DNA from: Salinivirgaceae bacterium
GTDB taxonomy: Bacteria > Bacteroidota > Bacteroidia > Bacteroidales > SZUA-534
DNA: 64,000 bases
Assembly: GCA_017557785.1 (NCBI GenBank)
Contig: JAFYYA010000050.1
Coordinates: forward strand, 1 to 64,000
Direction of reading: 5' to 3'
The notes under the pieces were generated by a model. The model had not been told where the DNA came from and searched no databases. It saw only the letters and a list, made by a program, of their open reading frames with translations. This document shows, piece after piece, positions 332 through 60,193 of the stretch. Made by a program: the position numbers and the translations under genes. Within the stretch, counting starts at the first letter, position 1. Each line of letters starts with the position of its first letter.

Positions 332-740
332 ATTGACAATTATTTTGAAGCACGAAATTTGAAATATGCGGATTTTATTCCGCACAATAAAAAAACTTTC
401 GCCCCAAAGTGCCAATTTGGACAAATGTTTCTATTTTTGAATATTGTTGAACAATTAAAATGTTTTGCCTATGTAATACATTGTAAGACATACATATAAA
501 TAAGCGTTAACTTTTACGGTTCATCAAAAATCGCCAAATTTTAGAATCCGTTAGAATATGAGTTGATGCTCACGCTTTTGCGTGGGCTATATTCGTATAT
601 CTGACGGAGGGCGTTTGGCGATGCCTTGATGAACGTAGACGAAGTTTTAGTCCACGTTTTTTTATTGTCTAAACTAAAGAGAGATTATTGAGTTATGCAA
701 AAAAGAAAACCTAATAATAAATCATTTAAAAATTAAAACT
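332..740. other. 409-base gene-free stretch holding structured element A
   Basis: No open frame here looks coding. The first ~180 bases are AT-rich with nothing recognisable. Bases 516-636 form a long multi-stem hairpin, and 633-664 a terminator-like hairpin with a T run (both listed separately). The remaining ~75 bases before the next start codon are A-rich leader. Confidence 0.7.
516..664 (+). ncRNA. Structured leader element A (multi-stem hairpin plus terminator-like tail)
   Basis: Five stacked helices can be read directly. Stem 1 is 516-527 with 626-636 (11 pairs, one bulged G). Stem 2 is 531-538 with 614-621 (8 perfect pairs). Stem 3 is 547-554 with 601-608 (8 pairs, one G.U). Stem 4 is 555-559 with 589-593. 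The apical stem is 568-575 with 580-587, closed by a TTTT loop. A further hairpin, 633-640 with 650-657 followed by eight T, shares bases 633-636 with stem 1, so the two cannot form at once. The 3' base of stem 1 is ~105 bases before the start codon at 741. A second copy with the same fold but different outer stems lies at 59218-59378. The role is unknown; a transcribed leader acting as an attenuator is my inference. Confidence 0.5.
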
Positions 741-2840
741 ATGCGGAAATTTACATCATTCATTGCCGCCCTAATGATTTCGGTGGCAACCTTCGCACAA
801 GCCCCACAGGGGTTCAGTTATCAGGCAGTTGTGCGCGATGCACAAAATGCCGTGGTTGCTAACAAAAATTTCAACGTAACCCTTGTAATTATGCAGGGCG
901 AAACGGCTGACGCTGCCAAAGATGTATACACAGAGACGCACAGTGTAACAACTAACCAGAACGGTTTGATTACTCTTACGGTTGGCGGTGGCAAAACAAC
1001 CGACGATTTTTCAGCAATCGACTGGAGCCGTGGCAATTACTTCATTAAAACCGAAAGCGATTTTGCTTCGTGCACAACCCAACTTTTGAGTGTGCCGTTT
1101 GCCCTATATGCTGCTCAAGCCGGCAGTGCTAATGTCGATTTGAGTGAGTATGCCAAGAAAGCCGATATTCTGGCAATTCCTACTGTTCCTACAAAAATTT
1201 CAGCCTTTGAGAACGATGCCAATTATGCTCTTAAAACAGAAATCCCCAATGATGCCAACTTGAGCGGCTACTACTCAAAAGCCGAAGTTGATGCCCTGCT
1301 TGCCAATCTCTGCACTGGTACTGGTGACAATACCGTCAGTGTTACGGCCGGTGACAATGGCACGGTAAAAGGCGCAAGTGGTAAGTTCTTTTCCGGCCAA
1401 AGCCTGACCTACACAGCTACACCAAATAGCGGTTATTACTTCTCTGGATGGAGCGATGGCTATTCAGATAACCCACGCACCATAATCATTTATTCCGACA
1501 TTAACATTGCTGCCCAATTCGCGCAGAATCCACTCGTAACCGTGACTGCTGGCAGCAATGGTAGTGTAGGCGGAAGCACTAATGGCCGATATGCACCTGG
1601 CAGTAATCTTTCGTTCACTGCCACACCATACGATGGCTACTATTTCAATCAGTGGAGTGACGGCTACACATCGAATCCGCGCTACATAAATGTTTACAGA
1701 AATGATATAACTCTTGAAGCCCAGTTTTCGCAGAACCCGCTCGTAACAGTAACCGCGGGCTCTAATGGCAGTGTCAGTGGAAGCACTAATGGCCGATATG
1801 CACCAGGTAGTTACCTTTCGTTCACTGCCACACCTTCCGATGGCTATTATTTCAACCAGTGGAGTGATGGTAACACCGCAAACCCACGCTATATTAATGT
1901 TTATAGAAGTGATATAACACTTGAAGCCGAGTTTGTACAAAACCCGCTTGTGACCGTGACTGCAGGTAGCAATGGCTCTGTAAACACAAGCGTTAACGGC
2001 CGTTATGCACCAGGCAGTAATGTGACAATTACCGCAACGCCTAACAGCGGCTATTACTTCAGCCAATGGAGTGACGGTAACACCGATAATCCCCGCACAA
2101 TAACCATTGGCACAAGCAATGTGACCTTAAGTGCCGAATTTGTTGCAGCCACAATTGCCACCGTGGATTTAGGCCTTACGAGTGGCAACCTTTGGGCAAC
2201 TTGCAATGTTGGTGCCATAAATCCGTGGAACTATGGTAACTATTACGCATGGGGTGAGACCGAAACCAAAGCCAATTACGATTGGAGCACATATAAATAT
2301 TGTTTGGGGACAAGCAATTCACTCACAAAATACTGTAACAATATAAATTATGGTCTTGATGCAAATGGTTACTATAGTTTTACTGATGCCCTTACAACTC
2401 TAGAATCGACCGATGACGCTGCTACAGCCGTCTTTGGCTCTGATTATTCAATGCCAACCATAGCTGATTGGAACGAATTGAGCAACCAATGCTATTGGGT
2501 TTGGACGTCGAACTACAATGAGAAGAACGTAAGCGGATACATAGTTTACAGAGCAAAATCTGATGGTGATAAGGGGGTCAAAGTTTATAGCGGTTTCCAA
2601 TCGTCCGTATCTTACTCGTTATCCGACGCGCATATTTTTCTTCCGGCTGCCGGTGCCCGCAGCAGTACGAATCTTTACAACGCAGGTTCGTATGGTGAAT
2701 ACAGCTCTTCATCGCTCGAAGATGGCAATCCGGACACCATGAGTGGCTGCTTAATTTACGGCAGCAGTGTCGTAATTCCGTCGATGGGCGCACACCGCAA
2801 CTGTGGGTACTCAGTTCGTCCTATTCGTCGCACGAATTAA
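741..2840 (+). CDS. Secreted FISUMP-domain surface protein with four InlB-type B repeats
   Basis: A 699-residue exported protein. Residues 1-20 are a signal peptide ending near TFAQA. Residues ~21-130 are the Bacteroidota N-terminal domain that starts APQGFSYQAVVRDA. It is followed by a short helical linker with NLSGYYSKAEVDALL. Four tandem ~67-69-residue repeats (about 199-468), each with VTVTAG..G.V and GYYF..WSDG, match the divergent InlB B-repeat fold found in surface proteins. The C-terminal ~220 residues, with VDLGLTSGNLWATCNVGA and the ending CGYSVRPI, are a Fibrobacter succinogenes major paralogous (FISUMP) domain. I see no T9SS sorting domain. The gene stands alone behind structured element A and ends at a strong terminator. 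A role in surface binding or adhesion is inferred; the ligand is unknown. Confidence 0.85.
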   Translation: MRKFTSFIAALMISVATFAQAPQGFSYQAVVRDAQNAVVANKNFNVTLVIMQGETADAAKDVYTETHSVTTNQNGLITLTVGGGKTTDDFSAIDWSRGNYFIKTESDFASCTTQLLSVPFALYAAQAGSANVDLSEYAKKADILAIPTVPTKISAFENDANYALKTEIPNDANLSGYYSKAEVDALLANLCTGTGDNTVSVTAGDNGTVKGASGKFFSGQSLTYTATPNSGYYFSGWSDGYSDNPRTIIIYSDINIAAQFAQNPLVTVTAGSNGSVGGSTNGRYAPGSNLSFTATPYDGYYFNQWSDGYTSNPRYINVYRNDITLEAQFSQNPLVTVTAGSNGSVSGSTNGRYAPGSYLSFTATPSDGYYFNQWSDGNTANPRYINVYRSDITLEAEFVQNPLVTVTAGSNGSVNTSVNGRYAPGSNVTITATPNSGYYFSQWSDGNTDNPRTITIGTSNVTLSAEFVAATIATVDLGLTSGNLWATCNVGAINPWNYGNYYAWGETETKANYDWSTYKYCLGTSNSLTKYCNNINYGLDANGYYSFTDALTTLESTDDAATAVFGSDYSMPTIADWNELSNQCYWVWTSNYNEKNVSGYIVYRAKSDGDKGVKVYSGFQSSVSYSLSDAHIFLPAAGARSSTNLYNAGSYGEYSSSSLEDGNPDTMSGCLIYGSSVVIPSMGAHRNCGYSVRPIRRTN
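1335..2145 (+). repeat. Four in-frame tandem repeats (201/207/207/~195 bp) encoding B-repeat domains
   Basis: Units start at 1335, 1536, 1743 and 1950. The exact 207-base spacing of the last three starts and the near identity of units 2 and 3 (e.g. the shared residues STNGRYAPGS and DGYYFNQWSDG) show recent in-frame duplication. Unit 1 is the most diverged. Confidence 0.85.
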
Positions 2841-58955: not shown

Positions 58956-59461
58956 TATTGTAACACAAAGACAATCAATTTGATTTCAGTTGATGATAAG
59001 CACAAAAAGAAAGTTGTTTGTCGTTTCAAGCATTATTTACTAATATTGTTTCCGTTTGCAGAAAAGACTATTATTGAATACTGATTTGCAACAATATGTT
59101 GAAACAAAAGTGATTTATATAAAAGTTATTGTGTGATTAAAAACTTATAACTGCCAATGAAATAAACAGATAGTAATGTACATATTTTAAATAGGGAAAA
59201 GCAAGTAGTTTGATTTGGATTCTTTGAAACTTCGACACTTTCAAATAGTCTGTCCAAAATCGGATAACGATGTGATTCACGCCTTTTGGCGTGGTATTAT
59301 TCGTTGTAGTTGGATAGACACGGCAGTCGAAGGCCTCAAAGAGTCTGATGAACACGAAATTAGTATCACGCTTTTTTTATATGTGCATTTTTCCTCTGAT
59401 ACGGCGCTTCCGAAAAGCCTTACGAGTAGGAAATAATTGTATTACTATATATTGTTTGAAT
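58956..59461. other. 506-base gene-free, AT-rich stretch holding structured element B
   Basis: The first ~260 bases are AT-rich with nothing recognisable. 59218-59345 is the hairpin element listed separately, and 59364-59378 a TATCACGC plus T7 stretch. Short open frames that cross the hairpin follow its palindromes rather than any protein pattern. Confidence 0.7.
59218..59378 (+). ncRNA. Structured leader element B (same fold as element A)
   Basis: Stem 1 is 59218-59227 with 59336-59345 (10 pairs, one G.U). Stem 2 is 59230-59236 with 59326-59332 (7 perfect). Stem 3 is 59248-59256 with 59311-59319 (9 pairs, one G.U). Stem 4 is AACGA 59266-59270 with TCGTT 59301-59305. The apical stem is TCACGCC 59277-59283 with GGCGTGG 59288-59294, TTTT loop. 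Only the apical part and the TATnTTCGT that follows match element A in sequence; the outer stems differ but pair equally well. Downstream TATCACGC (59364-59371) plus T7 could pair with the apical 3' strand. The stem base is 117 bases before the start codon at 59462. Confidence 0.5.
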
Positions 59462-60193
59462 ATGAAAAAGATATTTATACTACCATTGTTGCTTTTGCTT
59501 TGTGTAACGGCTTATTCTCAAAAAGGAAGTGACATTGTTTATCTGAAAAACGGGAGCAAGATAAAGGGAACAATAATTGAGCAAGTTCCAAATGTGTCGT
59601 TGAAAATACAATCAGGCGAAAATGTTTTTGTATATCAGATGGATGAAGTGGAAAAGATTGTTAAAGAGCAATTACAAACCAAAAACAATCTTTCGGAACC
59701 AGTTGAACTGAAAATAAATTACCCAAACAAGGGCTACCGTGGTTTTGGCGAAATAAACATTGGTGCAGGAAAGGATGGTGTTGATACAGAGTTTAATCAT
59801 ATTGGTTTTTTATCTGTTCACGGTTATCAATTTAATTCAAAACTATTTGTCGGTGGCGGAGCAGGTTTTTATGATTATTATAACGACAATGATGATGTCA
59901 TTATGATACCATTGTTTGCTGATGTCAGGTTAGATATGGTTCCGTCAGGCATATCACCATTCCTTGATGTGCGATTAGGTTATTCCATTGGGGATAATGA
60001 AGGAGTATATTTTGCACCTTCGTTTGGTGTCCGTTTTTCGAAGTTTCATATATCTGCAGGCTATTTGCTGCAAGGGTATTACTATGAAGTAAACCAAAAA
60101 ACGGCAGCAACAGATGTCGGATTTACCAAATCATTTTTTGCTCGTATAGCAATAGATTGGGGAGCAAGATACAAGTATGTTAACGTTGATTAA
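59462..60193 (+). CDS. Exported outer-membrane beta-barrel protein, unknown function
   Basis: A 243-residue protein. ATG 59462 starts a signal peptide (MKKIFILPLLLLLCVTAYSQ); upstream in-frame codons belong to the leader. Residues ~22-75 form a small domain (DIVYLKNGSKIKGTIIEQVP, VYQMDEVEKIVKEQ) like those that precede barrels in Bacteroidota. The rest shows alternating strands ending in an aromatic/charged tail (FFARIAIDWGARYKYVNVD), suggesting an eight-stranded barrel. It is AT-rich compared with the central genes. It lies 20 bases before the next exported gene and behind structured element B. Confidence 0.75.
   Translation: MKKIFILPLLLLLCVTAYSQKGSDIVYLKNGSKIKGTIIEQVPNVSLKIQSGENVFVYQMDEVEKIVKEQLQTKNNLSEPVELKINYPNKGYRGFGEINIGAGKDGVDTEFNHIGFLSVHGYQFNSKLFVGGGAGFYDYYNDNDDVIMIPLFADVRLDMVPSGISPFLDVRLGYSIGDNEGVYFAPSFGVRFSKFHISAGYLLQGYYYEVNQKTAATDVGFTKSFFARIAIDWGARYKYVNVD

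Follow-up and report, generated by a model that had tools for sequence, protein, structure and literature searches.

A widespread family of leader RNAs with two alternative folds, probably transcription attenuators, ahead of accessory genes in Bacteroidota

A trp-type attenuator is a leader whose strands can pair as 1:2, 2:3 or 3:4, and in UpxY/RfaH-type antitermination it is again at the level of the leader that surface and horizontally acquired genes are controlled. To our knowledge, few regulatory RNAs are known in Bacteroidota. Rfam holds the cis-regulatory DUF805b RNA (RF02914), and one study describes the Flavo-1 motif as widespread in Flavobacteriaceae, of unknown function, and placed sense or antisense without preference (PMC9723704).

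The leader described here follows the trp type in having a candidate antiterminator (2:3) and a candidate terminator (3:4) that, judged from sequence and covariation, would exclude each other, an upstream strand 1 that would compete with strand 3 for strand 2, and a T run directly after the 3:4 helix, which a minority of copies lack. Unlike the trp type, it showed no peptide of regulatory codons over region 1, and the genes listed downstream are no biosynthetic operons; additional S:S' stems and mini-hairpins belong to the present leader. With UpxY/RfaH-type antitermination it would share leader-level control of surface and horizontally acquired genes, but it carries a putative terminator switch of its own, and no factor or recruiting site was identified for the present leaders. 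It is a widespread motif, as is Flavo-1, and differs from what is described of Flavo-1 by its preferred orientation.

Two copies of the element in the window

The window, by which we mean the whole 64-kb stretch of DNA that was analysed, contains two copies, A and B, whose features are collected in Table 1. The initial annotation drew both as nested stems capped by a common apical hairpin, extending over 516-636 (A) and 59218-59345 (B), and folding agrees with that drawing. The minimum free energy of A (500-670) is -68.3, where shuffles average -38.2 (z -8.8, with 0 of 200 shuffles as good), and that of B (59200-59385) is -61.0 (z -4.7, with 1 of 200 as good). The shared apical motif occurs twice in the window where 0.02 occurrences are expected, and a covariance model of the rod (R1, described below) searched across the window at E up to 0.1 finds A and B only. 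A chance origin of the hairpins is ruled out by the folding z-scores together with covariation. The distances to the genes were also given correctly, A lying 105 bases before the gene at 741 and B 117 bases before the gene at 59462. The element comprises more than was drawn at first: a strand 5' of stem 1, a tail after the rod and a T run also belong to it. The genome, assembled as a draft of 153 contigs, has two further close copies, C88 (81% identity over the aligned part) and C152 (85%).

Table 1. Features of elements A and B, with predicted pairings, in coordinates of the window
Feature	Position	Strand	Detail or evidence
A, -7 promoter box	432..439	+	TATTTTTG (TAnnTTTG)
A, AUG-stop micro-ORF	471..476	+	TTGCCT ATGTAA
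A, region 1	503..519	+	predicted to pair with 548-570 in the alternative fold
A, rod (putative antiterminator), stems 1-4 and apical hairpin	519..634	+	folding, covariation
A, rod helices	519-527/626-634, 530-539/613-622, 547-555/600-608, 556-563/591-598, 568-575/580-587		
A, 5' mini-hairpin AAAAU/AUUUU, inside the stem 2 5' strand	527..542	+	fold of the half
A, apical hairpin	568..587	+	GCTCACGC-TTTT-GCGTGGGC; folding, motif count
A, putative terminator fold, region 3 (580-600) with region 4 (635-657)	580..657	+	580-589/648-657 and 592-596/639-643; 3' half alone about -30 kcal/mol
A, 3' mini-hairpin on GGC..GCC around the stem 2 3' strand	608..627	+	folds, covariation
A, T run	657..663	+	seven T
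Gene after A	741..2840	+	signal-peptide-like start (by eye), InlB B-repeat-like domains (Flg_new_2)
B, micro-ORF	59157..59165	+	ATGAAATAA
B, region 1	59208..59220	+	predicted to pair with 59252-59265 in the alternative fold
B, rod (putative antiterminator)	59217..59346	+	folding, model match, covariation
B, rod helices, outer	59217-59227/59336-59346, 59230-59236/59326-59332, 59248-59257/59310-59319		
B, rod helices, inner	59264-59270/59301-59307, 59272-59276/59296-59300, 59277-59283/59288-59294		
B, apical hairpin	59277..59294	+	TCACGCC-TTTT-GGCGTGG; folding, motif count
B, putative terminator fold, region 3 (59288-59307) with region 4 (59352-59372)	59288..59372	+	59288-59299/59361-59372 and 59300-59304/59354-59358; 3' half alone about -28 kcal/mol
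B, T run	59372..59378	+	seven T
Gene after B	59462..60193	+	signal-peptide-like start; start codon chosen by eye within ORF 59348-60193

Between the T run of B and its gene, a separate short stretch off the rod (59401-59432) gives a sub-threshold match to DUF805b RNA (24.3 bits, gathering score 35.6). By eye, a similar ACGAGTAGG or AGAGTAGG follows the T run at six other loci (L037, L042, L008, L009, L096 and L116), and a stretch near GTTGCGCACGACACG stands ahead of the start codons of different genes at L025, L011, L089 and L111.

Distribution of the family and its gene context

Beyond the pair seen at first, a covariance search recovered many further copies ahead of genes. R1 was built from an alignment of 14 copies (A4) with partial misalignment of L008 and L013, and its E-values are rough; MAFFT alignments of 13 and 12 copies, in which some rows were misaligned, were not used, and L007, a chance match to the apical pattern that forms no rod, was excluded. 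At E 0.01 all 11 genomes of the genus match, with 6-24 matches each, and the window's own genome has 10 in all. An order-level sample, searched through a strict filter with 11 candidates scored per genome, gave matches at E 0.001 in 106 of 295 genomes spanning 73 of 183 genera, and in a phylum-level sample 23 of 247 genomes match, the own genome counted. When species genomes were searched with a DNA pattern representing the most common sequence of stem 2, at least 120 stretches were obtained. Among the 80 of these listed are Bacteroides acidifaciens, Leyella lascolaii, Alloprevotella rava, Chryseobacterium gregarium, Epilithonimonas bovis and Maribellus luteus, along with metagenome-assembled genomes carrying the labels of other phyla (named Kiritimatiellae, Lentisphaerae and Ignavibacteria), some of which may be mis-binned. 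R1 matches 98 of 98 pattern-search loci, with 102 matches at E 0.001, and 24 of 33 viral contigs obtained with a similar pattern. Some loci (L190, L118, L130 and L164) hold two or three copies of the element, in tandem about 0.2 kb apart at L118, and at two loci from records titled Salinivirgaceae (L143 and L155) the ORFs match by eye those at L045 and L053.

No family of Rfam 15, among whose models we take Flavo-1 to be, reaches its gathering score at the element in the window, at four loci of the own genome or at 18 named or viral loci, and a relaxed search of the four own-genome loci (E up to 5) gave no match at the rods, in keeping with the initial annotation, which knew of no named RNA family of this form. 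No description of the element was found in the literature listings consulted or in passages of PMC9723704, PMC7366714 and PMC8040213; the 3161 candidates reported in the last could include fragments of the element. We regard A and B as members of a large Bacteroidota family of putative RNA switches that matched no Rfam family, the rod probably being one of its two folds.

In 220 of 234 copies the element and the nearest downstream ORF share a strand; the median distance is 74 nt from the end of the model or its estimate. This count started from 245 copies, some near-duplicates included, with 11 near locus ends set aside, and took as ORFs any reading frame of at least 70 aa rather than annotations. 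Nine of the 33 viral contigs (L239, L246, L247, L252, L254, L257, L260, L267 and L270) had been left out of it by eye; the later R1 search matched none of these nine and all of the other 24. Pfam was run on 97 of 189 non-redundant downstream proteins, each cut to 330 aa. Among the 25 of 53 families listed, BspA-type LRR occurs 10 times, HSDR_N_2 three times, N6_Mtase twice, and DNA_methylase, Mrr_cat and DarT once each, while PADLOC identified MAD2 in three and type IIG enzymes in two of the downstream proteins. The proposal that such a leader controls surface-protein genes is too narrow: genes for restriction-modification, methylation-associated defence and DarT and small HTH-like genes are found behind the element as well.

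In the genus, 41 of 67 homologues of an HTH-like protein of 70-90 aa have an element no more than 300 nt upstream on the same strand, as counted against 150 listed of 157 element matches; the remaining 26 are without an element among the matches listed. Six members of this protein family gave sub-threshold HTH matches or none in Pfam, and three gave no match in NCBIfam. The family, encoded at L055, L050, L052 and other genus loci, is possibly a regulator of the leader family.

Of 86 copies, 57 have the Bacteroidota-type -7 promoter box, TAnnTTTG, at a distance of 50-130 nt upstream of stem 1 (4.9 on average and at most 11 in shuffles), and the exact box is missing from 29, B among them. Just 5' of region 1, 51 of the 86 have a small perfect hairpin, compared to 7 in a control stretch. 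An upstream micro-ORF (AUG, 0-3 codons, stop) is present in 54 of 86 (shuffle mean 35.7, maximum 47), mostly about 45 nt upstream, so that it is frequent without being universal, and 76 of 110 upstream AUGs are of this type versus 41.7 of 143 in shuffles. At many loci the micro-ORF often reads TTGCCTATGTAA or TTGCCTATGNNNTAA, by eye mostly before exported-protein genes. Neither inspection by eye nor the AUG-stop counts revealed a leader peptide covering region 1; micro-ORFs only were found.

Covariation of the rod and a second fold

For covariation we used an alignment (A9) to which 87 of 103 loci were submitted and of which 86 passed E 1e-5 (L090 failed), near-duplicates being left out together with L097 and L113, which have a long insert in the apical loop. 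The claim first made from A and B, that pairing is conserved rather than sequence, extends to these 86 copies, in which 88.4% of cells are paired compared to 60.3% when shuffled. All five rod helices covary. Both sides change at 40 of 42 pairs, with 1034 such changes versus 339 when shuffled, and the covariation score is 0.721, as against 0.220 shuffled and at most 0.130 with partners slid, in an alignment that is fitted to the model and hence biased towards structure. Over the rod pairs G-U fills 320 cells and A-C 80, an excess which indicates that the plus strand is the structured strand. G-U pairs are common outside the core of stem 2; within that core (columns 28-33 with 250-255, six pairs), Watson-Crick pairs fill 514 of 516 cells and G-U fills one.

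Read side by side, the copies reveal a second set of complementarities. The strand just 5' of stem 1 (region 1) can pair with the 5' strand of stems 3-4 (region 2), and the tail before the T run (region 4) is complementary to the 3' arm of the apical hairpin plus the 3' strand of stem 4 (region 3). We measured coevolution by comparing each strand's own partner with permuted partners from other copies, which share ancestry, so that the z-scores are not probabilities. In the 86 copies, z is -11.7 for 1:2, -26.7 for 2:3, and -6.0 without or -14.4 with the apical arm for 3:4, compared to +3.4, +4.1 and +2.7 for the control combinations 1:4, 1:3 and 2:4. A second set, which had no role in forming the two-fold idea, consists of 97 of 102 pattern-search rows, near-identical ones being dropped, and gave -16.8 for 1:2, -27.4 for 2:3, and -5.9 without or -19.4 with the apical arm for 3:4 (controls, in the same order, +0.8, +3.1 and +2.9). 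Over 140 nt no row of the second set is 90% or more alike to the first and 24 rows are 80% or more alike; without rows of the latter kind, the 75 copies gave -17.0 for 1:2 and -5.5 and -18.7 for 3:4 (controls +0.1, +2.5 and +2.5). The 3:4 signal beyond the apical arm is modest, and part of the 1:2 signal could stem from an old duplication that was then inherited, given the resemblance of region 1 to region 3.

Folding of the separate halves gave a similar picture in both sets. Of the 3' halves folded by themselves, 77 of 84 and 92 of 95 close against the T run, as do 79 of 420 and 99 of 475 shuffles. Pairing of 1:2 is seen in 83 of 84 and 93 of 95 isolated 5' halves, versus 158 of 420 and 191 of 475 shuffles, a count that is weak by itself because some 40% of shuffles do the same. 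At least seven T in eight follow the 3:4 helix in 75 of 86 and 71 of 102 copies. In sequence lying further downstream the counts are 3 of 86 and 9 of 102, and after shuffling they are 10 of 86 and 10 of 102; L086, L090 and L158 are without a clean T run. The rod exceeds the two halves taken together in stability by 12-16 kcal/mol on average, so termination would need kinetics or a factor.

GGY and RCC, which stand in 86 of 86 copies beside freely varying stems, covary with each other (A-T 56, G-C 22, G-T 8, A-C 0). The second set (n=102) gave A-T 71, G-C 30, G-T 1 and A-C 0, where stem 2 and RCC were set by the search pattern with R left free, so that only R versus the Y of GGY is informative, and where the intervening strand TTTGGCGAT is identical in all copies. 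The GGY/RCC helix closes a hairpin whose loop of 8-11 nt carries the 3' strand of stem 2. On the 5' side AAA/UUU can close likewise, and did so in only 51 of 86 isolated folds. The "internal loops" of the rod thereby appear to be halves of alternative mini-hairpins. The presence of GGY and RCC in every copy, and the many copies per genome, would also suit a riboswitch proper, in which a small molecule bound by the conserved rod loops sets the fold. The conserved bases covary as a helix, however, which explains much of their conservation without a ligand, and the downstream families listed have no evident common pathway; we hold a riboswitch to be unlikely.

Proposed mechanism and other explanations

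We think it likely that the elements are 5' leader RNAs that act as transcription attenuators, with trp-like logic, before accessory genes. That they are leader RNAs was among the initial suggestions, and the upstream promoter box, the same-strand ORF, the G-U asymmetry and the coevolving alternative helices all argue for it. Comparison of the copies supports the helices (those of the rod, the two alternatives 1:2 and 3:4, and GGY/RCC) together with the T run, the upstream promoter box and a gene on the same strand; we infer further that termination does occur, that the rod is the ON state, that the stem 2 loops make contact and that a factor on the 5' half chooses the fold.

The transcript would run from the promoter, often through a micro-ORF, into region 1, strand S (stems 1 and 2) and region 2 with the 5' arm of the apical hairpin, and then through region 3 with the 3' arm, strand S', region 4 and the T run to the gene. 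In the ON state region 2 would pair with region 3 and S with S', giving the long rod, leaving region 4 free and letting the polymerase enter the gene. In the OFF state region 1 would hold region 2, upon which region 3 would pair with region 4 as an intrinsic terminator at the T run. Read-through is taken as the default on account of the rod's greater stability and its local apical hairpin, and termination would be the outcome of something holding the 5' half, for which a protein, another leader RNA, a ligand and translation of the micro-ORF are candidates; the opposite default, termination, is possible. In the split state the mini-hairpin of each half would present its strand of stem 2, and the complementary loops of about 8-11 nt might kiss, a contact that would make sense of the scarcity of G-U pairs in stem 2. 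More speculatively, and on balance improbably, the stem 2 strands could be a pairing code by which a terminated leader kisses nascent leaders of the same code at other loci, joining scattered accessory genes in RNA networks that are specific to a code, with the promoter-plus-switch block as a portable cassette that captures new genes.

The copies are dispersed. Of 244 related locus pairs in the genus (72 loci), 198 have the leader alone in common, with no nucleotide-level similarity in either flank, and six have the upstream flank and leader in common with no nucleotide similarity downstream, several of these perhaps being diverged LRR genes. Three loci from three species (L001, L012 and L015) have the same upstream sequence and leader, with similarity ending 7-15 nt after the T run of A; at L015, a stretch of about 0.6 kb carrying a 156-aa ORF separates the leader from the counterpart of A's gene. 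Comparison of 61 leader-only pairs puts the start of the shared block at a median of -82 relative to the model start, near the promoter box, and its end at a median of 26 nt past the first T of the T run (quartiles 21 and 55), so the block is larger than the hairpin. The initial annotation's alternative of a mobile hairpin has partial support.

Leaders shared without flanks are what dispersal of MITE or REP type would produce, and the three species that differ after the T run, the six pairs with dissimilar downstream sequence and the copies in viral contigs could all be read in the same way: as dispersed mobile DNA (MITE- or REP-like, or a substrate in single-strand hairpin form) that inserts ahead of genes and whose hairpin serves movement. 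We find this doubtful, as orientation and gene spacing are nearly fixed, the shared block begins about at the -7 box, as expected of a transcript, the predominance of G-U over A-C points to one strand as the structured one, and the alternative terminator fold and T run would have no role. Little probability likewise goes to the idea of a small RNA that ends at the T run and acts in trans, with the downstream gene as a mere neighbour. Its own promoter box, compact fold and terminator would fit such an RNA, yet a mere neighbour would not lie so consistently on the same strand and so close, and coevolving antiterminator and terminator helices would be superfluous; a small-RNA role may exist alongside attenuation. 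Integron-like recombination sites before gene cassettes were considered and rejected as very improbable: the accessory genes are diverse, the sites structured and variable in sequence, and genes turn over beside them, but the sites are scattered and upstream of the gene instead of forming cassette arrays (smallest same-contig spacing 5.8 kb among the 150 genus matches listed, although copies 0.2-1.1 kb apart do occur elsewhere), and the rod has a variable base and a conserved apex, the reverse of attC.

If attenuation by alternative folds is the right account, many bacteria, often from gut or rumen, would run between a few and about two dozen accessory loci in each genome by one type of RNA switch that is not named in Rfam, and the loci so controlled would include restriction-modification and surface-protein genes. 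The finding would link accessory genes to control at the RNA level, through a two-fold design with complementary loops that is well suited to probing.
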